This document shows, in pieces, positions 1-25,300 of a stretch of 64,000 nt of DNA. The stretch spans positions 124,001-188,000 of the forward strand of contig JAWWNJ010000208.1 in NCBI GenBank assembly GCA_037176885.1. Direction: 5' to 3'. The notes beneath the pieces are model-generated. The model ran no database searches. It was not told the DNA's origin and saw only the letters and a list, made by a program, of their open reading frames with translations. Every line of letters starts with the position of its first letter. Positions within the stretch are counted from its first letter, which is position 1. Both the position numbers and the translations under genes were made by a program. The stretch comes from Favolaschia claudopus (lineage: Eukaryota; Basidiomycota; Agaricomycetes; Agaricales; Mycenaceae).

Positions 1-579
1 ATCATCACTGTCACCCCAAGTAGGCAAAGGCGGAGGTGTTTTACCTTCAATGAGGAATGTATCATTTGCCTGAGAGCGGAGTCTGTGCAGGATGCGAAGA
101 AAGAGCCGATAATCTCGTTTCTTGACTCGATAAGCAGTCTCTGTAGTTGAAAGTTCAACTCTCTCAACCTCCATAAGCAGGATGTCGAGTTTTGCAAGCG
201 CATCCGGGAAGACCCTTTCAAACAACTTTCGCGAGGCCTTGGTAGCAGACAAGAGATAATCTTTGTCGGTACCAGAAGCGCCCTTTGCAAGTGCTTCATT
301 CCGTCGAGCAAGAATTTGAGCGTTACCTCCAATCTTGGCAAGCGGACGCAAAGTTGGAACCTTGATCACTGTCTCAAGAACTTCAACTTCGGTGTTGATC
401 AAACTATCAGCTACCGGGCCGTCGTAATCGTCAAGCGGACTATCATCGAATGCAGTGAAGGAGTCAAAGTCGGGGGCAGTTTGATCAGCAAAGCGATCAT
501 GTGGAGGAGTAGAAGTGCGAGGGCGATAACTCTGAGCAGCCGAGTCATCATGTTGAGGAGTAGTAGTAGTCGGAGACAT
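1..579 (-). CDS. Partial gag, left-arm copy of Gypsy element
   Basis: Mirror image of 22,362-22,940. The start codon lies at 579-577 and the frame runs out of the window at base 1. It encodes only the N-terminal ~193 residues of Gag, an acidic, Ser/Thr-rich head followed by a helical region. Whether the rest of this second retrotransposon copy exists depends on how far the palindrome extends. Confidence 0.85.
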   Translation of the reverse strand, partial: MSPTTTTPQHDDSAAQSYRPRTSTPPHDRFADQTAPDFDSFTAFDDSPLDDYDGPVADSLINTEVEVLETVIKVPTLRPLAKIGGNAQILARRNEALAKGASGTDKDYLLSATKASRKLFERVFPDALAKLDILLMEVERVELSTTETAYRVKKRDYRLFLRILHRLRSQANDTFLIEGKTPPPLPTWGDSDD

Positions 580-2155
580 GGCTGATAAAGGAAAAGAGTA
601 GACAGGTTAAGTACTCAACTGTTTAAGCAAGGAAGCTCCCTGTGTGTCCACCAGTGTTAGCGAAACCGTTTGCGCGGAGTGCAATGCGGGATATTCTTAG
701 ATAATCACGCGTTTGAGTGTGTCGTTGAATAGAGTAGAGGTATGTTCAATTCCTATATAAAACAACAAGAGCAGATGCCAGTCTACCTTAAGCAACCGAA
801 CTACGAGAGTGAATCTTCGTAGGACGTGAGCACGGGAAACGTCTCCGTATTCTTAAGATTGCTGTACTCACCAATAAGTAAGCCGCAGCGTTACTTGCAA
901 GGAGAGCCGTTGATAAGCTGAGATATGCTTCTAATCGATCTGGAATCACACGAAGTGGTGAGATGATGAGAGTAGTGAATTAAGAGGTAAAAGATACAAA
1001 CGCGCGGTACATACGAGATTTATGGGGAAGCTTGCTTCCCCATTCATCGGTATAGGGCTCCAGAATGCAGATGCTTACAAATGTCCGTCCGGATGCTTTG
1101 TAAGCACTGTCCCGGAGTCCTGAGTCCGTGGCCTCGGACTTCGGGAACGGCCGTCACTGTCATTGTCATGTGACTTCGGACTGCGCGCCGAATGAACTTT
1201 TCTGAGTGTTCAACTTTGGTTCAACTCAGATTCAATTGGCTCACTTGAACCTCATGTGCTGTGAATAAGCATACTCGTCATCACAGAAAGTAACCGGAAA
1301 TTGTGCTATTTTGACGCGGTCACGTGTTTTTCTCACGGAACTTGTATCCTATATTGTAGTTTGGTATGTTCCATTTACCCCGTATGAGTTTGAAGAAGAT
1401 TGCCGTTGTATACGTTGACCAGGAGTCTGCACAAATTCGAGAGTGCCTCGGTTTGCAATAGTTTGACTGTGAATAATGCAGAGAATATAACCAAATCCCT
1501 GTTTGAGACGCATGTAGGGTGATTGTGGTGTGATATGGTAGTTGTTCAGACTTAGGGGTACCCTGAGCAGCCTTTTGTATGACCTTCAACCTGCAATATC
1601 GGCAAGAAAAGGTGCATGCAAAGATCTTAGCCAGAATTGTTGAAATTGTGGTTTTGCCAGTGGTTTGAATGAAACTGTTGGAAGGTACACGAATGACGCA
1701 TAATACTAGTTCACCGTCTTATCTTGTAGTTACAGACAGTTTGGAAGCAACTGCCCTTCAAAATATGACTTTCAGCTGTGAAAATGTTGCAGCACGCAAA
1801 TCTGTTTATGTTTGTTGTGTGCCCTCGGACAAAACTTGCCTAGACTTTGCATTTGCACTTATCTTTCCGGTCCAATTCTTGTGCTGTGGAATCATTCCAT
1901 ACATATCTACTACCCAAGAGTATCAAACTCATAACTATGTGCCAAAATCATTGTCCAATGCTGCGCTTTTGTCGAATTGCGCAAAATCACAAGTGTCAAA
2001 GTTATTCTTAGTCTACGAGCTGTATTGAATCTTCCTGGCTGAGATGACCAGTCCATGAGATGTCAGTAGATGCCAAACATTATGTTCATAAAAAATTCAC
2101 CACAAAAAACTACAAATTTGGCCCAAACCGATCAAATTTCCGGTTACTTTCTGTG

Positions 2156-2340
2156 TGTCAGGGGATTCCACAGCTATGACATCTTCTGACTTGGGCAGAA
2201 GTTCTCTGTCTCCAAGACATCATGCTGTGTGCTCACTTATGTCATATCTTACGTCACCTCTTGTATATAAGTAGTTCACTGGGGATCTCTGATCCCCAGG
2301 TTTGTTATCGACTTGGCTCCTGGGCCCTTCTCCCCTTACA
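2156..2340 (+). repeat. 5' LTR of KH element
   Basis: 185-bp terminal repeat with a TATATAA-like box near 2,269 and a GGGGATC/GATCCCC hairpin just downstream. Identical by eye to 3,556-3,740, which points to a very recent insertion. Confidence 0.95.
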
Positions 2341-2445
2341 GCATAACAAACCTTCTATTCGACTCTGGCACTCTCCTAGCCCCAGCCGACCACCCTACTT
2401 CCTACTCTGCCCTCATCCTACCATCGACCTTACACCTCCCTTGCT

Positions 2446-3492
2446 ATGGCAACCCCCGCAGTTCCTCAGGACCTTTATTCCTACTGCACTCTCCTTCGAA
2501 GCGAACTACAGCGCGTCCACGACCGTCTTGATCGTCTTGAGTTTGGGGACACTGCAGCCTCTACTCCCCGAGGGCATGCCTGGCGCTTCTCCTGGGATGG
2601 CGCTCGCTGGGGCTCTGAACCATCAACCCCAGCCCCTACCCCTGCCATCATCGCTGTCGGCCACACCGCCATACCACTCGCCGAAACCCTCCCTACTGCA
2701 CAGGACGCACCGTCCCGCTACTCGTGTACGCTTGTGGTGCCTGACTCGGTCGTCGGGCATATCGTTGGCCGTGGTGGTAAGGGTCTTCATCAGTCGCACG
2801 ACATCTCCGGCGCCCAACTTCGAGCCTATACTGATAAGGCTTCCCCCTTGGAGCGCCGTGTATCTATCCGTGGTACCGACCAGCAAATCGGTGAAGCGCT
2901 AATTGCGCTTGGGAAGCGTTTCATGCGTAAGCGTATCCGCTCTAAGAAGAAAGGTCCGTCACGCCTTTCCGGGGACCCTGCCCCTCCCCCTCCTGGCCCG
3001 GTGCCAGTTTTGCCGAACGCTTCTGGCGAGGGCGCTCGCCCGCTGAAGAAGCGCGCACACCCCGTCCATCCGTCTCAGCCACCGGCTCCGGTTCCACCCC
3101 CTCCAGCGGCCAGTGCTCAGCCGCACCCAGGTGCCGCTACACAGCCAAGGAAGTCTGGGGTGCGATTTGCACCACAGGAGTCTTCCTACCCCGCCTCTAA
3201 CTCCCTACCCCATAACCCTGCCGCCATCTCTATTCCTACGCAGGTAATGGCGTCCCCTATTCCTACTCCCCGCCCCAGCTCTACTCCTTATGCCCCCTCG
3301 GTGGCCATGCCCACTGCCATCCCGTCCCCCTCTCCACGTTCAGTAGCTCCTTCGCCTATGGCCATTGATGCTATTCGACCTGAAAGGGGACGTCAACAAC
3401 AGACGGCACGGCGAGGCGGTGCAGTGTCTGCGTCTGATTCGCGGATTGACTCCCAGGGCAACCTACTCTTCCGTGGCGATCCAGGATTTTGA
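2446..3492 (+). CDS. KH-domain Gag-like protein of LTR element
   Basis: 348-residue ORF filling most of the internal region between the two LTRs. Residues 11-32 look like a short amphipathic helix or coiled coil. Residues ~91-165 form a KH-type RNA-binding domain: hydrophobic strand, then VVGHIVGRGGKG with the GxxG loop at about 108-111, then helix, strand and helix. A basic patch (RKRIRSKKKG) follows. The C-terminal half is very rich in Pro, Ala and Ser and likely disordered. There is no CCHC knuckle. I infer that the KH domain does the RNA packaging normally done by Gag nucleocapsid. The start is the first ATG after the 5' LTR with a long open frame. The domain call is strong; the packaging role is inference. 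Confidence 0.85.
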   Translation: MATPAVPQDLYSYCTLLRSELQRVHDRLDRLEFGDTAASTPRGHAWRFSWDGARWGSEPSTPAPTPAIIAVGHTAIPLAETLPTAQDAPSRYSCTLVVPDSVVGHIVGRGGKGLHQSHDISGAQLRAYTDKASPLERRVSIRGTDQQIGEALIALGKRFMRKRIRSKKKGPSRLSGDPAPPPPGPVPVLPNASGEGARPLKKRAHPVHPSQPPAPVPPPPAASAQPHPGAATQPRKSGVRFAPQESSYPASNSLPHNPAAISIPTQVMASPIPTPRPSSTPYAPSVAMPTAIPSPSPRSVAPSPMAIDAIRPERGRQQQTARRGGAVSASDSRIDSQGNLLFRGDPGF

Positions 3493-3555
3493 AGGATCGT
3501 TCATTCTACGGGGCTCTGGTCTTCGTCGAGGCGACGAATCTTGAAGAGGGGGTGA

Positions 3556-3740
3556 TGTCAGGGGATTCCACAGCTATGACATCTTCTGACTTGGGCAGAA
3601 GTTCTCTGTCTCCAAGACATCATGCTGTGTGCTCACTTATGTCATATCTTACGTCACCTCTTGTATATAAGTAGTTCACTGGGGATCTCTGATCCCCAGG
3701 TTTGTTATCGACTTGGCTCCTGGGCCCTTCTCCCCTTACA
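3556..3740 (+). repeat. 3' LTR of KH element
   Basis: Second 185-bp LTR, preceded by the purine tract at about 3,543-3,555 and followed by the CTGTG duplication. Confidence 0.95.
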
Positions 3741-6700
3741 CTGTGATGACGAGTATATACAGTACCCTACCAACACCTATATACTCAATGGTTGCTTGCT
3801 CATTAAGAAAGAATTCAGTAAACATCAAATTTTGTAAATTACAAGCCTCCTCAAGTTACAAGCACTTTGCCACTAATGCCGGGGCTCAGGGAATGCCTTG
3901 AGCAACTTCAAAAAAAATTACCAGACTTTGTGCTACTACCAGTGTCTTGGATATACTTACTACTACCCAGTGAGTATAGGCTATAGCTGTCAAAATTAAT
4001 GATTCAACAAAAAAGGGCCACTGAGTGTGCAACCAGATTCATGAGGAGCAAAAGGGGTTTGAAGGTGGATATGAGGGCGGTTACTGAGACGGTTCTGAGG
4101 TTCGTCAACTGAATAAGTTGGTTACCCAAATCGGGCGAAAAACTGTTCGAGCCAATAATGTTGCCCGAATTTAGCAAAAATGGGTGAATTGGACGTATTA
4201 GACCAGGATGTTGAATTCCCATTCGCACTGAAGCAAGCTTACCCTCCTATGTGGACCATTGTCCACATACCCAACATGTTAACTACTAGAGTCCTTGTCC
4301 GAGATCTCCGATCGGTTGCGATAATGACTCGTCGTTGAGTCATTGATATTCTAGACAGTTCTGGGGAGTGAGAGAGTCTTCCATCCGAGTGCTGGAGGCT
4401 TGACGAATGATGCAATGCTGTAAAGTAAAAGAACTTTAGAGCATTGACATCATAGGAGGTCGGGTGACCGCTTGTTCGGGATCCTCCGAGATATTGATGA
4501 TTTCCATCACAGCTACTGCCCGCGTGTCTACGCGCTTCCATTGGCCAGAAATCCTCCCTTTGCTCTCTACACTCGCTACACTGTCACATCTACTCGGACG
4601 CGTCGACTCGGCAATTTCTGTAAATACTGTGAATAGTCATACCCATATACATGAAGATGTCTTTGGAAGTGTTTCCGTACCCCAACTTTTGCCCAATCCC
4701 TCACCTGGAGTCAACCAACGGCCGCCACAGGTTGAGGGGCTTATCACCCCACTTTTTGATGAGCAAGGCCGTTTACAATGCCCCTACTGTTTCAAAGTTA
4801 TGGGGGCTGGCTCAACAGAGGCTGCCTTGAGAACTCACGCCTCCAGTACCAAATGCAAATGTGTGTCACTTGAAATTCGAGGCATTAAAAGGATTACTGA
4901 TCATCGTGTTTACAGCTGCACGACTCGCTAATTTGCAGCAACCTGCCGCCAAAACGACATCGGCTAATGTCTCGCCGCTACCTATCCCGTTACCCCCTCA
5001 AGTGCCCCAGCAGACCGCCTGGAATATACCCTGTCCCCGCGTCCTGCTCGGCTGGGATGACCTACCTTTTTGGAAAACATACCCCTTTCATCTGCATGAT
5101 CCCGAGTCGAAAGAGAGACCTGCATATAGCTTTGTATCAATGGTGCCTCCGCAAATTCGTTCTACCCGCTGTCTTGGACCCGTTATCACGGCTCGCGGCT
5201 ACCTTCCGTGCACTCATTGCCGTAGTCTATCTGTCGATGTTGATGTGCTTCTTGACCGCGCGAGACGCAGTTATCAGCATATCAACTCGGAAGATGTTTT
5301 GAACATGGTCCAACTACGAGAGAACTAGCAGCATCGAGGGAGCGAGAGAATAAACTCAAATTGAAGGTGAGACTACTATTTAATGACATTGGTGCGCACT
5401 ATTCATGCTGCGGTAGAATGTTAACATATCCGACGCCTTGGTAATCGCACGGGAACATTTGACAGAATACAAGGACGTAGTTCAATTTGTTGGCCAGAAT
5501 AATGTCCCCGCACTTCAGCGAATATTCTTCAACTTTGTGAAGAGAGGTTGGGGAATCAAGACGCTCCGCGAGAGGCTGAACCTCGCAGTCAACAAGGAAT
5601 ATTGAGCTGCAAACTTCCCCCAACACGAGATTGATCTGCAGATATTGATTTACGAGCTCGGCGGTGCCGGCGCGGTACATGCGCTCAATCATTCGTATTT
5701 TGCCCTTCCCTCCCTTAATACCATTCAACCCTACCGTCGACAAAACAACATTGTTCCTTGTGTCGATGGTGTTCGCATTACCGATGTCTTACAAAATATT
5801 GCGGCCCTCTTCGGACCTTACACGGACAAACCAGGAGCGAAACCGAGTCTTTCCGTTGAGCGGCCAGTTCAACTCCATGGCTATACCCTATCATTCGACG
5901 AGGTTGCGTCTGACCCGCGGCTCGATTATATGGCCGGAACGGATACCATTGGAGGCCTCTGTCTGGAGCACATTGACGCGTTGACAACTGTCAAGGTGGG
6001 AAAAGATATAAGCTCGGTAGAGGCTGCTGCTGCTGCTGTTCGGACAGGGAAAGTACACATCGCCAGTGAAATATCTGTCGGTGCAATATCACGGCTATCA
6101 CAAACAGGTTACGGAGCAAAGCCCGTTTTCATGGCGCCTTCATGCAAGAAGGGTGGATGGCGAGACCTGCTCAAAAACATGGAGATAGTTGTCGAGGCTT
6201 GGCGGCGTTCGGAGCATGGAGAAGCCAAACATGGGCCGCTGCTTTCAGTAGCCTCTGACGGTGCTGCAGGGCGTCGAGCCGCCATGTTTATGATGACTAT
6301 GCACAGCGAGATTAGCCCCGGAAACCCTCTGTATGAATCTGTTCGCAATCTTCCGGGGTTAAATCTCCGTGTCGGGAAAAATAATCTCACTGGTGATGTC
6401 GACTGGAAGTACGAAGACAAGAGTGAGTGTTAATTCAATATGTTTCTAGCAACAGCTAGACTTACAATATCTTCTAGGACTGTGCACTTGCTTTTGCTCG
6501 CCGCAGGGTATTGTCGTGAAAAATATTTGTGTTAACCGGGATTTATTGCTGTCGTGGTTGGAACGGTTACCTGATCATGACTGGTCTGAAATGACTCTCC
6601 ATTCCCTCCTGGACCCATCCGACGCACAGGATGTCCCGCGGGCAATGAAGCTCCTTCTGTGTATTGTCGAAGTTGCAAAGCTCGACTCGGAAGAGTTTGA

Positions 6701-7534
6701 TCCCAGCGAGATGGCAGAATTCGAGGCAATCTGCTTGCTCGGAGAGCTCTTGGATGCCTGGCTCCAGCCATTCATAAATGTTCAGCTCTCTCTTTCCGAA
6801 CAAATTGAATCACTCATAAAATTCTCGCACCTTCTCTGTGCACTCTATCTCCAAAACGGCACTTCCTTTTTACCCAACCAGCTTTACGGCGACCTTCAGA
6901 TAACCATAAAGAACGCAATTCTCATGGTACCCAAAACACGGCTCATTAATGGAGAGCTCAAAGTATTTCTGCGCCTTCTCGGAGATGATGTGCTGGAGAG
7001 TCTCTTCGGCCGTTCTCGGATGATATGCGGACACTCTCCAAATTTCAGCGTTGCCGAGTTACAACATCGCTTCAACTCAGCAATGAACCTGGATCGGATT
7101 TACGAAAGGTACCCCGAGTTGGAGCGTAAACCTCGGTGACTCGCAATGTTTCGGATGCGGCATGTAGATCATCTTTGACCGGCACATTTCCAAGCCGAGC
7201 TGAGGGCCAAAAGTTGCGATCTCGAAGCCTGCTGGAGTGCAGCCGTGCCGATGGCAGAATCTATTGTGCAAAAATTTGGAGTCAAGATGTCGGTTCCCTT
7301 TTCTCAGCTGTTCAAACGTAAAGCCACCGACCTAATGCGTCCATTTGGCGGCAAATATCCTGCCATCTCGGCTGAGGTGGACCGGTTGATGGCAAATCTC
7401 TGCTCCCACCAAGACCCCGAGATAGATGAGTCCACCACTACGGGAGAACAGCTGACAATCGACTTCGAAGCCATGATTGCGAGCGAGCTTGCTCAGCTCG
7501 CGGCCGAATCCGAGGCTGGCCCTCATTCTGTATT

Positions 7535-7934
7535 AACCTGTTTGCGCAAAAGCCATACGAGCCACCAGATGGCTTTGGGCGTGTGCGCAGCATATGGCTC
7601 CTAATTCTTAGACGTTTAAGCATCATACCTATATTGTATGCAACATATCCGCACAGTGTGTAGTAGCTGTCATGGGCTTCCCCAAATCACCAGAATCCAC
7701 GGTTAAGTTATGGCATCAACAACAGTTTCTCTGCTTGAGTGGTCTCTCCCTCACTGTCTGGGTATTGCCCGTCATGAAGGTCCGCAGTTCATCACCGGGC
7801 TTTATCTAGATAAGCACAGATGGTTTTGATGTAGTTGTGAACAGAATGCCCAAGATCAGCAGCCATTGGAGCCATCGGCTGCGCACACGCCAAAAGCCAC
7901 CAGATGGCTCGTATGGCTTTTGCACAACCTCTCT
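7535..7934. mobile_element. 400-bp MITE, ATT target duplication (left arm)
   Basis: Inserted in the transposase-like pseudogene, with ATT at 7,532-7,534 and 7,935-7,937. Imperfect TIRs carry GCAAAAGCCATACGAGCC and a long AGCC-rich inverted stretch. The right end is CTCT. Ignoring the insert and one ATT restores the host frame (…PHSV then FTQINA…). Copy in the other arm: 16,597-16,996. Confidence 0.85.
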
Positions 7935-8869
7935 ATTCACCCAAATCAATGCTGACGGTCATCTGTGTCACAAGAAGGCGGTTATGCGAACACTGTTTGA
8001 TATGACCCATGATACGCACACCAGTCACGATCGTCTTCAACGCGTTCGAGGCTTTACTACCGGCGGAAAATCCTACCTGCGAGAAGACACTGTTTACGGC
8101 GAGAAAACATCTCCGGCTACCCACTTCCAGCTCGGCAACCTTTTTGCAACTTTAATTTGCCACAACGGAACCCACCTTGGACTTGCTATCGCTAAATGCA
8201 CTGTGATCAAGCGCGGTCCATTAGGATCTAAATCACCAGCCATTCCGAGGGCTGAATTGGATCTACCGTCATCCCCATACACAATTGCGGGCCAAATTTA
8301 CGATTTAATCCCAATTCCTTCAACGGCAGGACCTTTGAAATGGGCTTGGAATGGGAAGTTAGTTTCGCTTTCCTTGTTGAAGAAGAGAAAAGCGAATGGA
8401 TCTGGGAAGGAGGAGATCTAGGATGTGATGGAAAAACTGCCAATTTCATAGGATTGCCTTTTATTACAGCATCTTTTGCCATATTGAGCCCCAATAGCAC
8501 GCGTAACAAATGCAAAGGTCAGCTTCAAGCCATCAGAGAGTTAGAGCACAAAAAACTCCGGCACTCGACGGTGCCCGCACGGAACAGAGACTGCCGAAGG
8601 CCAAAACAACCTCATGCCGAGGAGTTAGGGCAAGCGAGCGCGCCCTAACTCCGGAAATCAACAGTGTAATACCGCCCCGACAGGTTAGGATTAGGGTGAA
8701 AGACATAGTGATCCGCGCGAACAAGTAATGCCGCAGTGCCGAGCCTGGCTGCACAGTTCAATTTCCCACTGATCAATGTACAGTGTAGTAGGGTTCCTTG
8801 GATAGGGAGGGTTCCTTGATTATTTTTGTTTTCTGGCTATCCACAACAGCTTGTAATTTACTTGGTATT

Positions 8870-9066
8870 AGAGACTTTGCGGTAGCCACCGGTGGCTATT
8901 GGTAGCTCCTCATGTGCAATAGTTTTTTGAGCCTCCGGCTCAAGGTAGCCACCACTGCATCCTGTCAATAGGACGTACAAATGGTGGCTAATCTACCCAG
9001 AGGCTGTCGTCTGGTCCCGAGAAAAATCAGCCACCAATAGCCACCAGTGGCTACCGCAAAGCCTCT
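8870..9066. mobile_element. 197-bp MITE, left arm only
   Basis: Termini AGAGACTTTGCGGTAGCC / GGCTACCGCAAAGCCTCT give TIRs of more than 30 bp, flanked by ATT (8,867-8,869 and 9,067-9,069). The right arm has the empty site with a single ATT, so the insertion boundaries are exact. Confidence 0.93.
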
Positions 9067-9790
9067 ATTCTAAATCAGTCAATCCTATACGAAATTTGCA
9101 GTTTTCTCATCAAATCCTACGAACTTGGCACGCTGCTCTCAATCCTACTATCATACGAACTTGGTATATACTCATTGTTTGCCGATGGCGATCTCCATGA
9201 CAAGTTCCCCACCTTTACGGGCATCTCCGAAGGTAGTTTCCCGTATAGTGTTCCGCCCTCCGCAGGTGAGCTGATAAATTCTGAATGGATTATCCTTTTT
9301 ACACCTATATAGCATGCAGAAGCATTCATCGAGCAGTCAAATCTCACTCGTCATACCTGCCGCGTGTGTCAACAGCCGGTCAAGGGTACAGATCGTCAGA
9401 TCCACGTCGGACGCCATATCTTGAAGGCCATTTGCGGGGTTCCGGACACTTCTGTTAAGTTTCCAGTAAGTTTTTGCTTCGCATTCTTTGCTACAAATTG
9501 AAGGTAAACTCTTTTCCAGGTTTCAAATGCATATCCCTGTGGTATGTGTGGGGGGCCTACCAACAATGGGGCTTGTAAGGTAGAGATCAAGAGCGGAAAG
9601 GCGCTTTCGACGTGCCCCTCAGCCTATTCCTTCATGGTCGTGCCCGCCTCGAAATTTCACAAAGGGCGGCCATGCACAAATGTGCCCGTTGTTTGCGCCC
9701 TAAATTGCGGTGAGACCCATTGAAAATACAACTTCAAAAAGCACCTGGAGGAGCGCCATCCTTCTTGGGAACAGATTGCTTCACCCGCCT

Positions 9791-10966
9791 CACTGTGAGA
9801 AGTATTCGTCATGAAATTCAAGATCATCGTCTTGAAATTCAAGATTCCTGATGTTTCGTTAGAATACACGTCATGAATTTCAAGACTGGTTTCATGATGC
9901 TCCAAAACTTCTAAAAGTTACAAGGTGTGATACCGCACTCATATTCAACTGCGGGACCACATTACAGGATAATGCATATAATTCTCTTTCAAAAAGTGAC
10001 ATAAAAATCTTGAACCTGCATTCACGACGAAACATCACGAATTTCGGCCTCTAAAAACCAGCAAATTTTTGTTCAAGTTCTGCGGCCGAGCTGCCGAGTC
10101 AATGACGTCACTTACAGCATTGCTCCACATCCGCAGCACACATATGCTGCGGCCGCTCACGACGCCTCTTGCCTCCCCCCACCATGACCTCCCTCCAAGT
10201 CACCATCGTAGAGCGCCGCCGCCGCCGTCACTCTCGCCAACACACTCTGCTGTAACGGACCACGCCTCCTTCCCTACGTCACCGCCCTCTAGGATCAATC
10301 CACACCGCCGTAACCGAGCTAGATCTCTATGCAGTGCGCAAGACTCTCAAAGGATTAAGGGGTGGCGAAGGATGAGCCGGGATGAAGTGGTTGGGCAGGG
10401 TATTATTGTGAGTGATACTACGAGAGTGCATTGCAGCTCATTAATGCGCTCTTTCCCTGTCGTGGTAATTTAGCTCTTTGATGACGACAGAGCATTCAGT
10501 GATCTGTCTAACCCGGTGAGTTGCTTCCCTTCTCTACCTCTTTTTTATTCTCCATAGTGTGTTTCCGAGCCACGCAAGCTGATCAAGTACGGCTGATCAC
10601 GACGGTGGCGAGATTTTGAAGGTCAGAGTATCATTATACTAGTAGTACTGCAACTGTATTGTCCAGTACTTGCAATATATCCTGTTTTATACCTCTTCCA
10701 TGGAGTTTGATAAGGAGTAAGGCGTCGGGATAGCTGGCTAGCTTGGTGGTACTTCCGGACGAATCATCGCGAAGATCATGACAAAATGTCATGAAAAAAC
10801 GTTAGGAACGGGCCCACAGTCGTTAGGAATTTCAGGACCCCGGATCATAACGTTTCGTCATGAAATCCGACAAAAGATCATGAAATTCAACACAAATGAC
10901 GACGAAATACCTAACACAAGGTCCTGAACAACATCATGAATTTCAAAACCTTCCCTCTGCACAGTG
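9791..10966. mobile_element. Non-autonomous CACTA-type element (left arm)
   Basis: Ends CACTGTG...CACAGTG with a 3-bp duplication CCT (9,788-9,790 and 10,967-10,969). The subterminal regions are filled with variants of TCATGAAATTCATGATG on both strands, as expected of CACTA/EnSpm subterminal repeats. It interrupts the C-terminal exon of the pseudogene, and removing the element plus one CCT restores the frame (…SPA then FLALLEIS…). No transposase gene was seen. The interior (10,090-10,270) is related to 43,340-43,640. Confidence 0.8.
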
Positions 10967-11776: not shown

Positions 11777-12346
11777 TAGTCTGAAATTGTTGGCGGGGTT
11801 CGACCCGGACCTCGGTTTTGTCACGGCTGTAACATCATGTGCATTTCCCCACGCCCCAATGGGGCATGACACGTATGCGCGTCGGTGCTGTGGTACGCAG
11901 CGACGACCCACTGTGAAGGCTTCGCAAGCCTAGAGAAGTATTGAAAGACTGCCCAGCCCATAGATAGACATAATTCAGTGCTATTTTACGCTTTAGGACC
12001 ATAATCATCAAGCAATATTGTGTTCATGGAATAAGTATAGTATCTTCGGCATACGTACTGGTTACGACCCCGCCCAAGGTCCCAGATGCTTCACAATGGT
12101 AAATATCAGCCCCGGCAAGTGTAAATAAGGGGTTTCAAGCCCACCATACAGCCAACAAGCTGCATATTGGGCTCAAGTTGGACCGCCAAGTTTTCCGAAC
12201 GACGTGTCATTTCCTTATCCGACCGTGTGAACTGGCACGTGTGTCACAGAATCCGAGGTCTTGGATGACAGGCGCCATCAAGTTCAGACTCTATAATAGA
12301 TTCATCGACTATCATAAATCTTGTAGAGTCTGACTTGGTGAGACTA
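11777..12346 (+). mobile_element. Mutator-like MITE, copy 1
   Basis: 570 bp, ends TAGTCTGAAATTG...GGTGAGACTA. Closely similar to the complete copy at 56,216-56,787, which has a perfect 9-bp duplication. Here the flanks TGCCAGTAC and CTCTAGTAC resemble a mutated 9-bp duplication. The target is the MITE whose intact form is at 62,792-62,956. Confidence 0.8.
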
Positions 12347-13764: not shown

Positions 13765-14940
13765 CACTGTGCAGAGGGAAGGTTTTGAAATTCATGATGT
13801 TGTTCAGGACCTTGTGTTAGGTATTTCGTCGTCATTTGTGTTGAATTTCATGATCTTTTGTCGGATTTCATGACGAAACGTTATGATCCGGGGTCCTGAA
13901 ATTCCTAACGACTGTGGGCCCGTTCCTAACGTTTTTTCATGACATTTTGTCATGATCTTCGCGATGATTCGTCCGGAAGTACCACCAAGCTAGCCAGCTA
14001 TCCCGACGCCTTACTCCTTATCAAACTCCATGGAAGAGGTATAAAACAGGATATATTGCAAGTACTGGACAATACAGTTGCAGTACTACTAGTATAATGA
14101 TACTCTGACCTTCAAAATCTCGCCACCGTCGTGATCAGCCGTACTTGATCAGCTTGCGTGGCTCGGAAACACACTATGGAGAATAAAAAAGAGGTAGAGA
14201 AGGGAAGCAACTCACCGGGTTAGACAGATCACTGAATGCTCTGTCGTCATCAAAGAGCTAAATTACCACGACAGGGAAAGAGCGCATTAATGAGCTGCAA
14301 TGCACTCTCGTAGTATCACTCACAATAATACCCTGCCCAACCACTTCATCCCGGCTCATCCTTCGCCACCCCTTAATCCTTTGAGAGTCTTGCGCACTGC
14401 ATAGAGATCTAGCTCGGTTACGGCGGTGTGGATTGATCCTAGAGGGCGGTGACGTAGGGAAGGAGGCGTGGTCCGTTACAGCAGAGTGTGTTGGCGAGAG
14501 TGACGGCGGCGGCGGCGCTCTACGATGGTGACTTGGAGGGAGGTCATGGTGGGGGGAGGCAAGAGGCGTCGTGAGCGGCCGCAGCATATGTGTGCTGCGG
14601 ATGTGGAGCAATGCTGTAAGTGACGTCATTGACTCGGCAGCTCGGCCGCAGAACTTGAACAAAAATTTGCTGGTTTTTAGAGGCCGAAATTCGTGATGTT
14701 TCGTCGTGAATGCAGGTTCAAGATTTTTATGTCACTTTTTGAAAGAGAATTATATGCATTATCCTGTAATGTGGTCCCGCAGTTGAATATGAGTGCGGTA
14801 TCACACCTTGTAACTTTTAGAAGTTTTGGAGCATCATGAAACCAGTCTTGAAATTCATGACGTGTATTCTAACGAAACATCAGGAATCTTGAATTTCAAG
14901 ACGATGATCTTGAATTTCATGACGAATACTTCTCACAGTG
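13765..14940. mobile_element. Non-autonomous CACTA-type element (right arm)
   Basis: Mirror of 9,791-10,966, with the same CACTGTG ends and the same 3-bp duplication. Confidence 0.8.
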
Positions 14941-16596
14941 AGGCGGGTGAAGCAATCTGTTCCCAAGAAGGATGGCGCTCCTCCAGGTGCTTTTTGAAGT
15001 TGTATTTTCAATGGGTCTCACCGCAATTTAGGGCGCAAACAACGGGCACATTTGTGCATGGCCGCCCTTTGTGAAATTTCGAGGCGGGCACGACCATGAA
15101 GGAATAGGCTGAGGGGCACGTCGAAAGCGCCTTTCCGCTCTTGATCTCTACCTTACAAGCCCCATTGTTGGTAGGCCCCCCACACATACCACAGGGATAT
15201 GCATTTGAAACCTGGAAAAGAGTTTACCTTCAATTTGTAGCAAAGAATGCGAAGCAAAAACTTACTGGAAACTTAACAGAAGTGTCCGGAACCCCGCAAA
15301 TGGCCTTCAAGATATGGCGTCCGACGTGGATCTGACGATCTGTACCCTTGACCGGCTGTTGACACACGCGGCAGGTATGACGAGTGAGATTTGACTGCTC
15401 GATGAATGCTTCTGCATGCTATATAGGTGTAAAAAGGATAATCCATTCAGAATTTATCAGCTCACCTGCGGAGGGCGGAACACTATACGGGAAACTACCT
15501 TCGGAGATGCCCGTAAAGGTGGGGAACTTGTCATGGAGATCGCCATCGGCAAACAATGAGTATATACCAAGTTCGTATGATAGTAGGATTGAGAGCAGCG
15601 TGCCAAGTTCGTAGGATTTGATGAGAAAACTGCAAATTTCGTATAGGATTGACTGATTTAGAATACCAAGTAAATTACAAGCTGTTGTGGATAGCCAGAA
15701 AACAAAAATAATCAAGGAACCCTCCCTATCCAAGGAACCCTACTACACTGTACATTGATCAGTGGGAAATTGAACTGTGCAGCCAGGCTCGGCACTGCGG
15801 CATTACTTGTTCGCGCGGATCACTATGTCTTTCACCCTAATCCTAACCTGTCGGGGCGGTATTACACTGTTGATTTCCGGAGTTAGGGCGCGCTCGCTTG
15901 CCCTAACTCCTCGGCATGAGGTTGTTTTGGCCTTCGGCAGTCTCTGTTCCGTGCGGGCACCGTCGAGTGCCGGAGTTTTTTGTGCTCTAACTCTCTGATG
16001 GCTTGAAGCTGACCTTTGCATTTGTTACGCGTGCTATTGGGGCTCAATATGGCAAAAGATGCTGTAATAAAAGGCAATCCTATGAAATTGGCAGTTTTTC
16101 CATCACATCCTAGATCTCCTCCTTCCCAGATCCATTCGCTTTTCTCTTCTTCAACAAGGAAAGCGAAACTAACTTCCCATTCCAAGCCCATTTCAAAGGT
16201 CCTGCCGTTGAAGGAATTGGGATTAAATCGTAAATTTGGCCCGCAATTGTGTATGGGGATGACGGTAGATCCAATTCAGCCCTCGGAATGGCTGGTGATT
16301 TAGATCCTAATGGACCGCGCTTGATCACAGTGCATTTAGCGATAGCAAGTCCAAGGTGGGTTCCGTTGTGGCAAATTAAAGTTGCAAAAAGGTTGCCGAG
16401 CTGGAAGTGGGTAGCCGGAGATGTTTTCTCGCCGTAAACAGTGTCTTCTCGCAGGTAGGATTTTCCGCCGGTAGTAAAGCCTCGAACGCGTTGAAGACGA
16501 TCGTGACTGGTGTGCGTATCATGGGTCATATCAAACAGTGTTCGCATAACCGCCTTCTTGTGACACAGATGACCGTCAGCATTGATTTGGGTGAAT

Positions 16597-16996
16597 AGAG
16601 AGGTTGCGCAAAAGCCATACGAGCCATCTGGTGGCTTTTGGCGTGTGCGCAGCCGATGGCTCCAATGGCTGCTGATCTTGGGCATTCTGTTCACAACTAC
16701 ATCAAAACCATCTGTGCTTATCTAGATAAAGCCCGGTGATGAACTGCGGACCTTCATGACGGGCAATACCCAGACAGTGAGGGAGAGACCACTCAAGCAG
16801 AGAAACTGTTGTTGATGCCATAACTTAACCGTGGATTCTGGTGATTTGGGGAAGCCCATGACAGCTACTACACACTGTGCGGATATGTTGCATACAATAT
16901 AGGTATGATGCTTAAACGTCTAAGAATTAGGAGCCATATGCTGCGCACACGCCCAAAGCCATCTGGTGGCTCGTATGGCTTTTGCGCAAACAGGTT
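16597..16996. mobile_element. 400-bp MITE, ATT/AAT duplication (right arm)
   Basis: Mirror of 7,535-7,934. It retains GCG at a site where the left arm has GCA (7,924), a CpG-to-CpA change. Confidence 0.85.
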
Positions 16997-19900
16997 AATA
17001 CAGAATGAGGGCCAGCCTCGGATTCGGCCGCGAGCTGAGCAAGCTCGCTCGCAATCATGGCTTCGAAGTCGATTGTCAGCTGTTCTCCCGTAGTGGTGGA
17101 CTCATCTATCTCGGGGTCTTGGTGGGAGCAGAGATTTGCCATCAACCGGTCCACCTCAGCCGAGATGGCAGGATATTTGCCGCCAAATGGACGCATTAGG
17201 TCGGTGGCTTTACGTTTGAACAGCTGAGAAAAGGGAACCGACATCTTGACTCCAAATTTTTGCACAATAGATTCTGCCATCGGCACGGCTGCACTCCAGC
17301 AGGCTTCGAGATCGCAACTTTTGGCCCTCAGCTCGGCTTGGAAATGTGCCGGTCAAAGATGATCTACATGCCGCATCCGAAACATTGCGAGTCACCGAGG
17401 TTTACGCTCCAACTCGGGGTACCTTTCGTAAATCCGATCCAGGTTCATTGCTGAGTTGAAGCGATGTTGTAACTCGGCAACGCTGGAATTTGGAGAGTGT
17501 CCGCATATCATCCGAGAACGGCCGAAGAGACTCTCCAGCACATCATCTCCGAGAAGGCGCAGAAATACTTTGAGCTCTCCATTAATGAGCCGTGTTTTGG
17601 GTACCATGAGAATTGCGTTCTTTATGGTTATCTGAAGGTCGCCGTAAAGCTGGTTGGGTAAAAAGGAAGTGCCGTTTTGGAGATAGAGTGCACAGAGAAG
17701 GTGCGAGAATTTTATGAGTGATTCAATTTGTTCGGAAAGAGAGAGCTGAACATTTATGAATGGCTGGAGCCAGGCATCCAAGAGCTCTCCGAGCAAGCAG
17801 ATTGCCTCGAATTCTGCCATCTCGCTGGGATCAAACTCTTCCGAGTCGAGCTTTGCAACTTCGACAATACACAGAAGGAGCTTCATTGCCCGCGGGACAT
17901 CCTGTGCGTCGGATGGGTCCAGGAGGGAATGGAGAGTCATTTCAGACCAGTCATGATCAGGTAACCGTTCCAACCACGACAGCAATAAATCCCGGTTAAC
18001 ACAAATATTTTTCACGACAATACCCTGCGGCGAGCAAAAGCAAGTGCACAGTCCTAGAAGATATTGTAAGTCTAGCTGTTGCTAGAAACATATTGAATTA
18101 ACACTCACTCTTGTCTTCGTACTTCCAGTCGACATCACCAGTGAGATTATTTTTCCCGACACGGAGATTTAACCCCGGAAGATTGCGAACAGATTCATAC
18201 AGAGGGTTTCCGGGGCTAATCTCGCTGTGCATAGTCATCATAAACATGGCGGCTCGACGCCCTGCAGCACCGTCAGAGGCTACTGAAAGCAGCGGCCCAT
18301 GTTTGGCTTCTCCATGCTCCGAACGCCGCCAAGCCTCGACAACTATCTCCATGTTTTTGAGCAGGTCTCGCCATCCACCCTTCTTGCATGAAGGCGCCAT
18401 GAAAACGGGCTTTGCTCCGTAACCTGTTTGTGATAGCCGTGATATTGCACCGACAGATATTTCACTGGCGATGTGTACTTTCCCTGTCCGAACAGCAGCA
18501 GCAGCAGCCTCTACCGAGCTTATATCTTTTCCCACCTTGACAGTTGTCAACGCGTCAATGTGCTCCAGACAGAGGCCTCCAATGGTATCCGTTCCGGCCA
18601 TATAATCGAGCCGCGGGTCAGACGCAACCTCGTCGAATGATAGGGTATAGCCATGGAGTTGAACTGGCCGCTCAACGGAAAGACTCGGTTTCGCTCCTGG
18701 TTTGTCCGTGTAAGGTCCGAAGAGGGCCGCAATATTTTGTAAGACATCGGTAATGCGAACACCATCGACACAAGGAACAATGTTGTTTTGTCGACGGTAG
18801 GGTTGAATGGTATTAAGGGAGGGAAGGGCAAAATACGAATGATTGAGCGCATGTACCGCGCCGGCACCGCCGAGCTCGTAAATCAATATCTGCAGATCAA
18901 TCTCGTGTTGGGGGAAGTTTGCAGCTCAATATTCCTTGTTGACTGCGAGGTTCAGCCTCTCGCGGAGCGTCTTGATTCCCCAACCTCTCTTCACAAAGTT
19001 GAAGAATATTCGCTGAAGTGCGGGGACATTATTCTGGCCAACAAATTGAACTACGTCCTTGTATTCTGTCAAATGTTCCCGTGCGATTACCAAGGCGTCG
19101 GATATGTTAACATTCTACCGCAGCATGAATAGTGCGCACCAATGTCATTAAATAGTAGTCTCACCTTCAATTTGAGTTTATTCTCTCGCTCCCTCGATGC
19201 TGCTAGTTCTCTCGTAGTTGGACCATGTTCAAAACATCTTCCGAGTTGATATGCTGATAACTGCGTCTCGCGCGGTCAAGAAGCACATCAACATCGACAG
19301 ATAGACTACGGCAATGAGTGCACGGAAGGTAGCCGCGAGCCGTGATAACGGGTCCAAGACAGCGGGTAGAACGAATTTGCGGAGGCACCATTGATACAAA
19401 GCTATATGCAGGTCTCTCTTTCGACTCGGGATCATGCAGATGAAAGGGGTATGTTTTCCAAAAAGGTAGGTCATCCCAGCCGAGCAGGACGCGGGGACAG
19501 GGTATATTCCAGGCGGTCTGCTGGGGCACTTGAGGGGGTAACGGGATAGGTAGCGGCGAGACATTAGCCGATGTCGTTTTGGCGGCAGGTTGCTGCAAAT
19601 TAGCGAGTCGTGCAGCTGTAAACACGATGATCAGTAATCCTTTTAATGCCTCGAATTTCAAGTGACACACATTTGCATTTGGTACTGGAGGCGTGAGTTC
19701 TCAAGGCAGCCTCTGTTGAGCCAGCCCCCATAACTTTGAAACAGTAGGGGCATTGTAAACGGCCTTGCTCATCAAAAAGTGGGGTGATAAGCCCCTCAAC
19801 CTGTGGCGGCCGTTGGTTGACTCCAGGTGAGGGATTGGGCAAAAGTTGGGGTACGGAAACACTTCCAAAGACATCTTCATGTATATGGGTATGACTATTC

Positions 19901-20283
19901 ACAGTATTTACAGAAATTGCCGAGTCGACGCGTCCGAGTAGATGTGACAGTGTAGCGAGTGTAGAGAGCAAAGGGAGGATTTCTGGCCAATGGAAGCGCG
20001 TAGACACGCGGGCAGTAGCTGTGATGGAAATCATCAATATCTCGGAGGATCCCGAACAAGCGGTCACCCGACCTCCTATGATGTCAATGCTCTAAAGTTC
20101 TTTTACTTTACAGCATTGCATCATTCGTCAAGCCTCCAGCACTCGGATGGAAGACTCTCTCACTCCCCAGAACTGTCTAGAATATCAATGACTCAACGAC
20201 GAGTCATTATCGCAACCGATCGGAGATCTCGGACAAGGACTCTAGTAGTTAACATGTTGGGTATGTGGACAATGGTCCACATA

Positions 20284-21916
20284 GGAGGGTAAGCTTGCTT
20301 CAGTGCGAATGGGAATTCAACATCCTGGTCTAATACGTCCAATTCACCCATTTTTGCTAAATTCGGGCAACATTATTGGCTCGAACAGTTTTTCGCCCGA
20401 TTTGGGTAACCAACTTATTCAGTTGACGAACCTCAGAACCGTCTCAGTAACCGCCCTCATATCCACCTTCAAACCCCTTTTGCTCCTCATGAATCTGGTT
20501 GCACACTCAGTGGCCCTTTTTTGTTGAATCATTAATTTTGACAGCTATAGCCTATACTCACTGGGTAGTAGTAAGTATATCCAAGACACTGGTAGTAGCA
20601 CAAAGTCTGGTAATTTTTTTTGAAGTTGCTCAAGGCATTCCCTGAGCCCCGGCATTAGTGGCAAAGTGCTTGTAACTTGAGGAGGCTTGTAATTTACAAA
20701 ATTTGATGTTTACTGAATTCTTTCTTAATGAGCAAGCAACCATTGAGTATATAGGTGTTGGTAGGGTACTGTATATACTCGTCATCACAGAAAGTAACCG
20801 GAAATTTGATCGGTTTGGGCCAAATTTGTAGTTTTTTGTGGTGAATTTTTTATGAACATAATGTTTGGCATCTACTGACATCTCATGGACTGGTCATCTC
20901 AGCCAGGAAGATTCAATACAGCTCGTAGACTAAGAATAACTTTGACACTTGTGATTTTGCGCAATTCGACAAAAGCGCAGCATTGGACAATGATTTTGGC
21001 ACATAGTTATGAGTTTGATACTCTTGGGTAGTAGATATGTATGGAATGATTCCACAGCACAAGAATTGGACCGGAAAGATAAGTGCAAATGCAAAGTCTA
21101 GGCAAGTTTTGTCCGAGGGCACACAACAAACATAAACAGATTTGCGTGCTGCAACATTTTCACAGCTGAAAGTCATATTTTGAAGGGCAGTTGCTTCCAA
21201 ACTGTCTGTAACTACAAGATAAGACGGTGAACTAGTATTATGCGTCATTCGTGTACCTTCCAACAGTTTCATTCAAACCACTGGCAAAACCACAATTTCA
21301 ACAATTCTGGCTAAGATCTTTGCATGCACCTTTTCTTGCCAATATTGCAGGTTGAAGGTCATACAAAAGGCTGCTCAGGGTACCCCTAAGTCTGAACAAC
21401 TACCATATCACACCACAATCACCCTACATGCGTCTCAAACAGGGATTTGGTTATATTCTCTGCATTATTCACAGTCAAACTATTGCAAACCGAGGCACTC
21501 TCGAATTTGTGCAGACTCCTGGTCAACGTATACAACGGCAATCTTCTTCAAACTCATACGGGGTAAATGGAACATACCAAACTACAATATAGGATACAAG
21601 TTCCGTGAGAAAAACACGTGACCGCGTCAAAATAGCACAATTTCCGGTTACTTTCTGTGATGACGAGTATGCTTATTCACAGCACATGAGGTTCAAGTGA
21701 GCCAATTGAATCTGAGTTGAACCAAAGTTGAACACTCAGAAAAGTTCATTCGGCGCGCAGTCCGAAGTCACATGACAATGACAGTGACGGCCGTTCCCGA
21801 AGTCCGAGGCCACGGACTCAGGACTCCGGGACAGTGCTTACAAAGCATCCGGACGGACATTTGTAAGCATCTGCATTCTGGAGCCCTATACCGATGAATG
21901 GGGAAGCAAGCTTCCC
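20284..21916. mobile_element. 1.6-kb element nested in 5' LTR
   Basis: Absent from the 3' LTR. The possible duplication CATA is at 20,280-20,283 and 21,917-21,920, and the inverted ends share AAGCTTGCTTC. It contains its own nested MITE. No coding domain was recognised and the superfamily is unknown. Confidence 0.55.
20778..21667. mobile_element. 890-bp mariner-type MITE
   Basis: 30-bp TIRs beginning CTCGTCATCACAGAAAG, flanked by TA (20,776-20,777 and 21,668-21,669). No transposase. Confidence 0.8.
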
Positions 21917-22286
21917 CATAAATCTCGTATGTACCGCGCGTTTGTATCTTTTACCTCTTAATTCACTACTCTCATCATCTCACCACTTCGTGTGATTCCA
22001 GATCGATTAGAAGCATATCTCAGCTTATCAACGGCTCTCCTTGCAAGTAACGCTGCGGCTTACTTATTGGTGAGTACAGCAATCTTAAGAATACGGAGAC
22101 GTTTCCCGTGCTCACGTCCTACGAAGATTCACTCTCGTAGTTCGGTTGCTTAAGGTAGACTGGCATCTGCTCTTGTTGTTTTATATAGGAATTGAACATA
22201 CCTCTACTCTATTCAACGACACACTCAAACGCGTGATTATCTAAGAATATCCCGCATTGCACTCCGCGCAAACGGTTTCGCTAACA

Positions 22287-22303
22287 CTGGTGGACACACA
22301 GGG
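22287..22303 (+). promoter_or_regulatory. Putative primer-binding site of Gypsy element
   Basis: One base after the LTR end comes TGGTGGACACACAGG. TGG complements the universal CCA tail of tRNAs. Which tRNA it matches was not determined. Confidence 0.5.
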
Positions 22304-22361
22304 AGCTTCCTTGCTTAAACAGTTGAGTACTTAACCTGTCTACTCTTTTCCTTTATCAGCC

Positions 22362-25300
22362 ATGTCTCCGACTACTACTACTCCTCAACATGATGACTCG
22401 GCTGCTCAGAGTTATCGCCCTCGCACTTCTACTCCTCCACATGATCGCTTTGCTGATCAAACTGCCCCCGACTTTGACTCCTTCACTGCATTCGATGATA
22501 GTCCGCTTGACGATTACGACGGCCCGGTAGCTGATAGTTTGATCAACACCGAAGTTGAAGTTCTTGAGACAGTGATCAAGGTTCCAACTTTGCGTCCGCT
22601 TGCCAAGATTGGAGGTAACGCTCAAATTCTTGCTCGACGGAATGAAGCACTTGCAAAGGGCGCTTCTGGTACCGACAAAGATTATCTCTTGTCTGCTACC
22701 AAGGCCTCGCGAAAGTTGTTTGAAAGGGTCTTCCCGGATGCGCTTGCAAAACTCGACATCCTGCTTATGGAGGTTGAGAGAGTTGAACTTTCAACTACAG
22801 AGACTGCTTATCGAGTCAAGAAACGAGATTATCGGCTCTTTCTTCGCATCCTGCACAGACTCCGCTCTCAGGCAAATGATACATTCCTCATTGAAGGTAA
22901 AACACCTCCGCCTTTGCCTACTTGGGGTGACAGTGATGATATTGAAAGTGTTTACAAAAAGAATGACTTCGAAATTCTTGGAGTTTGCTTTCGCGTTGAG
23001 GTTGAAAATTACCTGTCACTTCTCAATAGGTACTATGATTTCCAGAGCCAACGTCCGAAGGAACGACATACTGATCTGGACGATGAGGCTGATGAGTTCA
23101 TGAGAGCGAGAACGCACAGTATGGATCCACCTGAGGATTCACGCTTTGAATATCCAGAGTACCGTGATATTTCAAAGGCCAGTCAATCAACTGTCTATCC
23201 GCTCCACAATGCTTCAAGCATCCGTTTTGGTTCAAACGCGCCAAACAATGGCTTACCTCGTAATAATCAGCGACTCGGTGAGGTATTGAATCCGATTGGT
23301 TCGATTTACCAACCACAGAGAGATCGTAGACCACGAGAAGCTCCGAACTGGCCAGACCAAAGACAGGAGCGTGAGCAGATGAGAAGATCCACTCCTCAAG
23401 GACAAAATAGGGAGCGGGACTTACCACCTCATTTTCCGCAAGGGAATAGTGGCGGTCGGAATTCTCGACCTCAGTCTCCTCCCAAGCGTAGTGGCGCTCC
23501 TCCTAATGGTGATCCCGGAGACGACGACGATGATAGCGACGATGAACGAGGATACCCACGTAATCGTCGCTCAGTACCGTTCCGTGGACCAATCAATCGA
23601 GGAGTACCTGCAGTTAGAAGAACACCACCTGGCATTTCTGAGGCTACAAGTGAGGCGCGTTTCGATTTGAAACTCAAATATGATACAGTACCTAAGTGGG
23701 ACGGCAACGTTGACACCATTATCCGGTGGTTTTTGAAGATCAACGACCTTGCGAGAGAATCCGAGACGATCTATCAGCAACTGGGACGTGTAGTCCCTAA
23801 GCGGCTGGAAGGCGGGGCGGAATCCTGGTATTGGTCATTGCCGGCAAAGTACCGTTCAGAAATTGAGAAAAATTGGGACACCTTGCGTAGCGCATTCGCG
23901 ACCTACTACCTGAATCGTAAATGGTTAGATGGGCAGCGCGGACGAGCGAATAGGGCAACCTATAGGGACGCTGGCCATACGCGCGAGACCCCGAGTGAAT
24001 ACTTCATTCGCAAGACCGAGCTCCTTAATAATGTTTACACTATGGATGATTCAGAGATCATTTTAGAGGTTATGGATGGCGCACCGTCAACATGGAATAC
24101 CATCTTAACCACTCAAATGTATCGCGATCTGGTTGAATTCCAGGCTGCAATCCGCTACAATGAGGATGCTTTAATGAAGCTCGACCGCCAGGAGAAGGAA
24201 TATCCGTACCGAGACCGTGAACGGAATCGGGACTTCCAGAGGGATCGCCCTCGTAATGCACATGTTAACCAAGTAGGGTGGTCAGCAAATTTGGGACCAC
24301 CAAAATTTCCTAAGGATGATCGCAATGTCTCGAAGAGAGCTACACCTGAATCAAAAGGGGCGAGACCTTGTCGGCATTGCGGAAGTGGGAAACACTGGGA
24401 TAACGAATGCAAACATTCCTTCCGAGGTAATAAAGCGGCACGTACCAACCTAGCCACTTCAACTAGCGAGGATCTTGAAGCTCAAAGCGACTATGATGAG
24501 CTGTATTATGGACTGGACAGTGAATCAGATAGTGAGGACGTACAGAAGCAGGATTTTGAGTTGCCCTCCAGGAGTGCTGAATCCGAAGAGATTGATTCAG
24601 GCCTGGGGGGGAAAACCGCGTCAAATGATGCTGTAAGGAACTCGGAAGAAACGGCTCTGGCTACTCACCCTGATTCCAATTCTTCGGATTCTGGCTCAGT
24701 TCAACAGCAGTCAACTTCTTGTTCGTCATTTCAGGCGAAACATGCGCTGAATAGACGAACTCGTCGTCGATTAGCTCGAGATATCAAGGCAGTTAATTAC
24801 CGAGTCATTCACTCACCAAGTGGCAAGTCCGAAAAATCGATTGTTGAACTTCGGAAGTACATGGCACGACCTCCAGGAAGTTCATTTCTTGGGGCCTTAC
24901 CGACCGAAGCAACGGCTACTGTTGGTGGTTTGAATATTGATCCTGTCAAAGTTATCATTGATTCGGGTTCGGACATTACTCTGATTTCACAAAAGGCTCT
25001 TGACGCACTCACCTATCCTCCGAAGGTTAAGGCAGGTCATCCAATCAACTTGATCCAGGTAACCGGTAAATCCTCGTTATCCGGATATGTTATTCTTGAC
25101 TTGTACTTCCAGACAGACGAAGGTCCAGTAAAGGTGAATGTTGAGGCTTATGTTGTGAAAGGAATGACAACCCCTTTCATTTTGGGTAATGATTTCACGG
25201 ATCAATATTCGATTTCGATAATTCGAGAAGACGGTGACACGTACCTTCGCTTCGGAGACTCGGGACGACAGCTTAGAGTTGAAACTTCAATTTCGAGTCC

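Follow-up and report, generated by a model that had tools for sequence, protein, structure and literature searches.

The window analysed in our study is a stretch of 64,000 nucleotides from Favolaschia claudopus (positions 124,001-188,000 of contig JAWWNJ010000208.1, hereafter C208). It contains a near-perfect palindrome, palindrome 1, and a second one, palindrome 2, lies farther along the same contig. Both are centred on the same hairpin, which is formed by two inverted copies of a miniature inverted-repeat transposable element (MITE) that we call A, and their inner arms (arm1 in palindrome 1 and arm2 in palindrome 2) are neighbours on contigs C72 and C59. From this adjacency and the common centre, we infer that a single locus, arm1-hairpin-arm2, gave both arm1-hairpin-arm1 and arm2-hairpin-arm2, and both of these reciprocal products are present in the assembly. 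The process that we favour, with somewhat better than even confidence, is a hairpin-driven fold-back or fork U-turn, followed by breakage and end-joining. Comparisons were made over the rebuilt contig of 300,344 bases, in an assembly (GCA_037176885.1) of 264.6 Mb and 460 contigs; positions are those of the window unless a contig is named.

Extent and divergence of the palindromes

The left arm of palindrome 1 begins 3.0 kb upstream of the window, according to self-comparison of the contig (C208 121,002-136,346, 15,345 bp, forward strand; 1-12346 within the window). After a spacer of 38 bp (12347-12384, C208 136,347-136,384), the right arm (12385-25939, C208 136,385-149,939, reverse strand) mirrors the left one minus two insertions. 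In a minus-strand BLAST comparison of the window with itself, 9066-15665 matched itself, 3741-8869 matched 15662-20790, and 1-2155 matched 20786-22940, with identities of 99.5-99.96%. A sequence-only reading of this stretch had proposed a near-perfect palindrome from 1 to 22940, with this spacer and with the same broken-gene frames, transposons and long terminal repeat (LTR) in both arms. Self-alignment of the window and of the rebuilt contig, the check which that reading had suggested, bears out the palindrome, its spacer and the content common to its arms; its right limit was drawn too narrowly, the right end being at about 25,940, and the left arm does leave the window, as that reading had stated. 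The inverted MITEs at the centre, the second palindrome around the same centre and the probable origin of both from the two flanks of one locus escaped that reading, as they come to light only on the whole contig.

Only five substituted bases separate the arms of palindrome 1 (window 7924, 7045, 1600 and the adjacent pair -874/-875). Beyond these, the arms differ by two transposon insertions, both restricted to the left arm: a short LTR element of 1585 bp with 185-bp LTRs (2156-3740, forward strand, target-site duplication CTGTG) and a 197-bp MITE (8870-9066, forward strand, target-site duplication ATT), and the empty sites of both are present in the right arm. In our informal judgement, chance cannot produce 13.5-kb arms at more than 99.9% identity. 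A missed adapter or a single-molecule fold-back would leave arms free of real differences, which is not the pattern seen here, given the one-arm insertions with their duplications and empty sites and the substitutions between the arms. Both arms carry open frames of a broken Mycena-type gene (5645-7139, forward strand, in the left arm; mirror copy at 17392-18886). Its portion at 5,645-6,433 has 42 protein relatives, of which the named ones are mostly from Mycena (the best from M. alexandri, with 76% identity), and the remaining named ones are from Favolaschia (two) and Sphagnurus (one). The amplified or sex-linked setting that the sequence-only reading had evoked finds no counterpart in these data, in which the arm proteins resemble those of a Mycena-like fungus.

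Palindrome 2 has its arms from about 218,205 to 300,297 of C208 around a spacer at 265,031-265,068, and it ends 47 to 48 bases before the end of the contig. Its central 1,178 bp are common to both palindromes at 99.83%. The arms align as ten blocks, with nine gaps where one or both arms carry more than 200 extra bases, and eight of these blocks (31.3 kb) contain 37 substitutions between the arms; this count omits the block at C208 220,871-221,344, which is not homologous, and the P values below used 31,396 bases, the eight kept blocks summing to 31,302. None of the 37 substitutions falls in the inner 7.4 kb (P about 4e-5 under a uniform fall), and eight fall in the inner 16.8 kb (P about 8e-5 under a uniform fall). 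The scarcity of substitutions near the centre fits gene conversion, and uneven mutation or haplotype switching could also account for it. In addition, the left arm has the short LTR element in full (C208 221,670-223,254), and the right one has a single 185-bp LTR in its place (C208 297,756-297,940), which we read as a solo-LTR change in one arm.

Contig C138 reaches palindrome 2 from the opposite side, crosses its centre and presents the same arm phase as C208 at both of the two informative single-nucleotide polymorphisms (SNPs). An alignment of the four arms (two from each contig) over 9 kb has 49 variable columns, 46 of which are C138 singletons (one of them an N that we placed ourselves). 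The other three are one singleton of the C208 left arm and two columns that pair the arms in the C208 phase, and no substitution separates C138 from C208. When the following 2 kb of the C138 arm are compared with C208, there are 0 mismatches and 13 gaps to the right arm, and 2 mismatches and 6 gaps to the left one. A telomere at the end of C208 was considered and rejected, as the contig has no telomere-like repeat and its last 2.3 kb have no tandem repeats.

The 128.7-kb segment between the two centres joins two neighbourhoods, one at C208 157-158 kb that resembles C59 and the other from C208 168.7 kb that resembles C221. Outside this segment, the inverted copies extend for 13.5 kb on one side, where an unrelated locus, X, takes over, and for at least 34.6 kb on the other, where the contig ends.

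The MITE hairpin and the proposed ancestral locus

The centre consists of two 570-bp copies of MITE A (TAGTCT...AGACTA), arranged tail to tail around the 38 bp and nested in another element, MITE M. In palindrome 1, the copy with its own flanks (11777-12346, forward strand) stands between TGCCAGTAC and CTCTAGTAC, its left side having apparently been changed through the loss of a third element, MITE N. The inverted copy (12385-12954, reverse strand) is a hybrid that stands between TTCTCGCTT and GTACTGGCA, with a putative template switch or exchange inside it. The left half of M (92 bp, 11685-11776, forward strand) is mirrored at 12955-13046 (reverse strand), and the spacer (12347-12384) is made up of the last 4 bases of MITE N (CTCT) and a piece of M ending in the 9-bp duplication TTCTCGCTT. 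In palindrome 2, it is the right half of M that is present on both sides; its left A lies between two copies of AAGCGAGAA, a perfect duplication, and its right A lies between GTACTAGAG and TTCTCGCTT. In each palindrome, in consequence, one A retains its own flanks, and the second is a hybrid that carries the flank of its partner on the side of the spacer. When folded as single-stranded DNA, the centre is predicted to form one stem of -787 kcal/mol.

A search of the genome with a 301-bp query from the centre gave 558 first-look candidates, and A is dispersed in the genome as judged from the best 40 of these 558, which were scored. Exact 9-bp duplications flank the left A of palindrome 2 and a single 572-bp copy in the window (56216-56787, forward strand, GCAGAGAAG); by eye, 9-bp duplications are also seen at a complete copy on C130 (TCTCGTGTG) and on C65 (GCACTGTTA), and the copies fetched from C187 and C79 lack their 5' part. 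On these features, A is best classified as a MITE with 9-bp target-site duplications, which we take to be Mutator-like (MULE-type), the sequence itself offering just the short TAGTCT...AGACTA terminus. MITE M is also found in the window in a copy that holds neither A nor N (62789-62959, forward strand). An exact pattern that requires two A ends to lie tail to tail with 20-50 bp between them occurs at four places in the genome, namely both C208 centres, C138 and C65. The C138 match is palindrome 2 again, and three of the four places are accordingly palindrome centres. The C65 pair (135,030-135,089) is independent and older, with a different spacer and one arm cut to about 90 bp; counting this pair, A has twice inserted near another A in the opposite orientation, perhaps owing to a target preference.

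Three other contigs present the locus in simpler states. In C72 (279,200-281,200) arm1 directly adjoins arm2; in C59 (32,900-34,300) the two are parted solely by MITE M, of about 171 bp; and in C54 (298,050-298,700) the M between the arms additionally holds MITE N. Among the best 40 of 488 candidates for the inner piece of arm1, there were only two full-length matches, both on C208, and the close partial partners were at C59:34,144, C59:407,880, C72:278,587 and C54:298,146. The inner piece of arm2 was complete only twice on C208, twice on C138 and on C59 (best 40 of 310 candidates), and a small C59 piece adjoining the informative SNPs has 0 mismatches and the same 16 gaps against either arm. 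The distance from arm1 to its right flank is about 5.0 kb in C59 (twice) and C72, compared with 19.6 kb in C208. Because both arms share them, most of the arm1 insertions, including a Gypsy element described below, predate the duplication of the arms. C59 and C54 also led us to reject the idea that the centre represents the ends of a reverse-transcriptase/recombinase-like element at 57,318-60,736 of the window, since they show that the 92-bp flank and the spacer belong to MITEs M and N.

The only reading that we found for these junctions is an ancestor of the form arm1-M(left)-A-spacer-A'-M(right)-arm2 with an exchange inside A, to which the own-flank A and the hybrid A of each palindrome point. 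The flanks of the first A agree at only 6 of 9 bases; this would be explained by a later loss of MITE N, whose end (CTCT) persists in the spacer. The copies of A differ at a single position, 302, with G in both copies of palindrome 1 and A in both copies of palindrome 2, and if the two ancestral copies differed there, the exchange would have taken place on the spacer side of this position. The axis of symmetry of each palindrome is, on this ancestor, a pre-existing close inverted repeat, the same 570-38-570 pair at both.

The outer end of palindrome 1 lies inside a Gypsy chromodomain retrotransposon (21918-33350, forward strand), whose two LTRs are identical at 369 of 369 positions. Pfam searches with ten open reading frames (ORFs) of the window assigned protease, reverse transcriptase, RNase H, integrase and chromodomain to two Gypsy ORFs, and the right arm stops within the first of them. 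The left arm mirrors no more of it than 21918-25939; this copy of the 5' end of the element (1-1023 within the window, with its LTR at 655-1023, reverse strand) is cut off at its junction with X, 3.0 kb beyond the window edge. Going outward, the first 4.0 kb of Gypsy run to C208 121,002 and are followed by a 457-bp tandem repeat of their end, past which X starts at about C208 120,544; no complete copy is there to answer to the second Gypsy element which the sequence-only reading had thought might lie beyond the left arm. C99 is identical to C208 at X over 801 bp and, as far as the break, over stretches of 325 and 86 bp (with overlaps, about 1.16 kb altogether), lacks a 187-bp MITE (duplication ATT) that C208 has within X, and differs past the break. 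We regard C99 as the unrearranged allele of X on the strength of this match. At the break, C208 has AACTCTTC followed by CAGGAAG, C99 has AACTCTTC followed by ATAG, and Gypsy has GATGA followed by CAGGAAG, with no shared bases. The inverted copy of arm1 ends, in other words, at a break inside Gypsy that is joined to a non-homologous locus without microhomology. Since such a join gives overlap assembly nothing to work from, it is probable, irrespective of the status of the centre, that a truncated copy of arm1 is truly linked to X, a chimeric read being possible.

Mechanism and competing explanations

Based on these junctions, the following order of events can be proposed. MITE M, with N inside it, lay between arm1 and arm2; A inserted into M, and a second A inserted the opposite way 38 bp off, which completed the 570-38-570 hairpin, and the sequence shows all of these steps. 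A replication fork or a resected break would then have met the hairpin and made a U-turn or folded back, with a template switch within A, and each flank would have been copied into a mirrored version of itself. A break about 13.5 kb out, inside Gypsy, would have followed in the arm1 palindrome, and the broken end would have been joined without homology to X, where 457 bp are duplicated in tandem. Slight arm divergence and new transposon insertions would have come later, perhaps with gene conversion near the centre keeping the arms alike.

Several observations weigh against this account. The divergence between the arms (5 substitutions in 13.5 kb and 37 in 31.3 kb) is no greater than that between near-identical copies, which ranges from 0 in about 1.16 kb (C99) to 4 in 1.23 kb (C59). 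When reverse-complemented, the first 1,300 bases of C59 match the final 1,300 of C208 without a difference, the two contigs breaking off at the same base, and the end of C138 (604,001-626,000, 22 kb examined) has scattered 1-bp errors; we find both suspicious, as apparent marks of a troubled assembly. The pair produced by a U-turn would be expected on two chromosomes, and having both on one contig would require a further join. Finally, the C65 pair has no mirrored flanks in the 3.3 kb examined, though one of its arms has only about 90 bp.

An inversion would lead to the same two palindromes if arm1-hairpin-arm2 had been duplicated directly: each hairpin is nearly its own mirror image and hence could pair in both orientations, and recombination between the hairpins would invert the 128.7 kb between them, a segment that may still flip. 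This agrees with the fact that one segment of C208 is bounded by both palindromes and that its re-inversion on paper restores two direct arm1-hairpin-arm2 copies, and it would place an exchange inside A in both palindromes, between position 302 and the spacer, provided that the ancestral copies were different at 302. However, a single clean crossover predicts equal spacer orientation and a palindrome 2 hybrid on the other side, whereas the spacers are opposite and both hybrids are to the right; an inversion therefore needs one more flip. The direct duplication must also be assumed, and the inner-arm and A-pair searches found no contig with arm1-hairpin-arm2. We consider the inversion unlikely and prefer the fold-back or U-turn with breakage to it. 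A comparably low probability is given to an assembly artefact, against which the sequence-only reading had warned with good reason, a misjoin at the hairpin being a genuine rival. The true haplotypes or copies would in that case be arm1-hairpin-arm2, the assembler would have crossed at the self-mirrored hairpin, and one false palindrome per flank would have resulted, which is exactly the pair observed. Single-copy-type genes are in about three copies in this assembly: PF00562 (RNA polymerase second subunit domain) has 23 matches that, grouped by score and position, form three three-contig sets (C1/C179/C129, C26/C29/C5 and C61/C2/C413) and C6, suggesting that the assembly holds about three near-identical haplotypes or is strongly redundant. 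The start of C59 at the base where C208 stops, the unpolished end of C138 and arm differences like those between alleles also speak for an artefact. On the other hand, the join of X to Gypsy has no overlap that could mislead an assembler, making a truncated second arm1 copy likely; C138 shows the same arm phase from the other side; the hairpin, of just 1.2 kb, is short relative to long reads; insertions with target-site duplications are present in one arm; and the same searches placed the hairpin between arm1 and arm2 in no contig.

That two unrelated palindromes came to share their centre repeat by chance is hardly credible. The dispersal of A, with its 558 first-look candidates and the best 40 scored, would make such a coincidence easier, but C72 and C59 have arm1 and arm2 side by side, which practically refutes it; in addition, one MITE M is split between the palindromes, their duplication sequences interlock, and the exact pattern yields only four tail-to-tail A pairs in 264.6 Mb. 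A hairpin-capped linear plasmid or circle as the source was set aside as unneeded, because X and C221 tie the pieces to ordinary contigs; a 129-kb circle is a possible intermediate. Beyond the favoured fold-back or U-turn, one may speculate, with more doubt than attaches to the inversion or the artefact, that the MITE pair acts as a permanent switch in the chromosome. An encounter with a fork could then mirror the flanks or invert the 129-kb segment between the two hairpins, nuclei of this mushroom would differ in orientation and in palindrome state, and non-coding MITEs that happen to lie in pairs would repeatedly give rise to palindromes, inversions and translocations in mushroom genomes rich in transposons.

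Sex-chromosome palindromes have long arms with more than 99.9% identity that undergo arm-to-arm gene conversion. The present case resembles them in the length and identity of its arms and in a hint of homogenisation near the centre, and differs from them in having no sex-chromosome setting, arms made mostly of transposons and a broken gene, and a 38-bp spacer. Palindromes arising from close inverted repeats are known chiefly at loci engineered in yeasts and at junctions linked to disease or amplification. The yeast systems yield products of the sort seen here, which speaks for the favoured process. In fission yeast, the report on RuiuR describes a palindrome with a 14-bp interruption that gives reciprocal acentric and capped chromosomes through a U-turn of restarted forks at its centre (PMC4351560). 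The close inverted repeat, its brief interruption (14 bp in fission yeast, 38 bp in our case) and the two reciprocal palindromes are common to both cases, whereas that system, as described there, is an engineered locus with programmed fork arrest, and ours has natural MITE insertions and both products on one contig. For inverted Alus in budding yeast, fold-back is reported to yield inverted duplications that are joined to other chromosomes and have their breakpoints close to Ty and similar repeats (PMC10164571). We likewise see an inverted duplication flanking a repeat and ending near a repetitive element (Gypsy) that is joined elsewhere (X); in contrast to the break-induced replication and distal loss described there, our join is free of homology and arm2 is kept, as palindrome 2 on C208 and also in C59 and C138. 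Origin-dependent inverted-repeat amplification (ODIRA) involves a full triplication and two inverted junctions, which fall at interrupted inverted repeats that were already present, with less than 100 bp between them (PMC10766183). The two junctions at such closely spaced repeats are also found here, but the repeats are 570 bp instead of the 2-14 bp given in that account, and the arm1 side shows no full triplication (13.5 kb, then X).

A limited literature search (titles and abstract openings, with subscription literature mostly outside it) returned no fungal or MITE-seeded palindrome like the present case. The kind of rearrangement is known; that search gave no natural case that combines both reciprocal palindromes with homologs in three earlier states and with target-site duplications from which the order of events can be read. 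One genome appears to hold the steps together, from the empty locus in C72 and the first MITE in C59 to the second in C54, both palindromes and the end-joined break. If this is true, the order of events can be read from target-site duplications, and chance pairs of small MITEs are able to rebuild whole chromosome segments; if it is an artefact, it is a warning that self-mirrored MITE pairs yield twin false palindromes in multi-haplotype fungal assemblies.

Other features of the contig

At its beginning, C208 has a direct duplication between 1-21,497 and 51,209-71,030, starting from contig base one, with a period of about 50-52 kb, an identity of 99.6-99.9% and interruptions by insertions. Just downstream of the single A copy of the window, 56913-56971 has a tRNA-like Rfam match of 32.5 bits, at which ARAGORN found no tRNA. 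The frames at 57318-60736 resemble, by eye, a reverse transcriptase and a tyrosine recombinase; two ORFs tried from this region had no Pfam match at E 0.001, and the element is presumably DIRS-like. Finally, an ORF at 45796-46362 has an Enhancer-of-polycomb-like domain according to Pfam. The 1.57-kb stretch around it (C208 168,700-170,273) has several near-identical copies, for example on C72, C59 and C204, and may be a gene fragment that was duplicated or captured by a transposable element.

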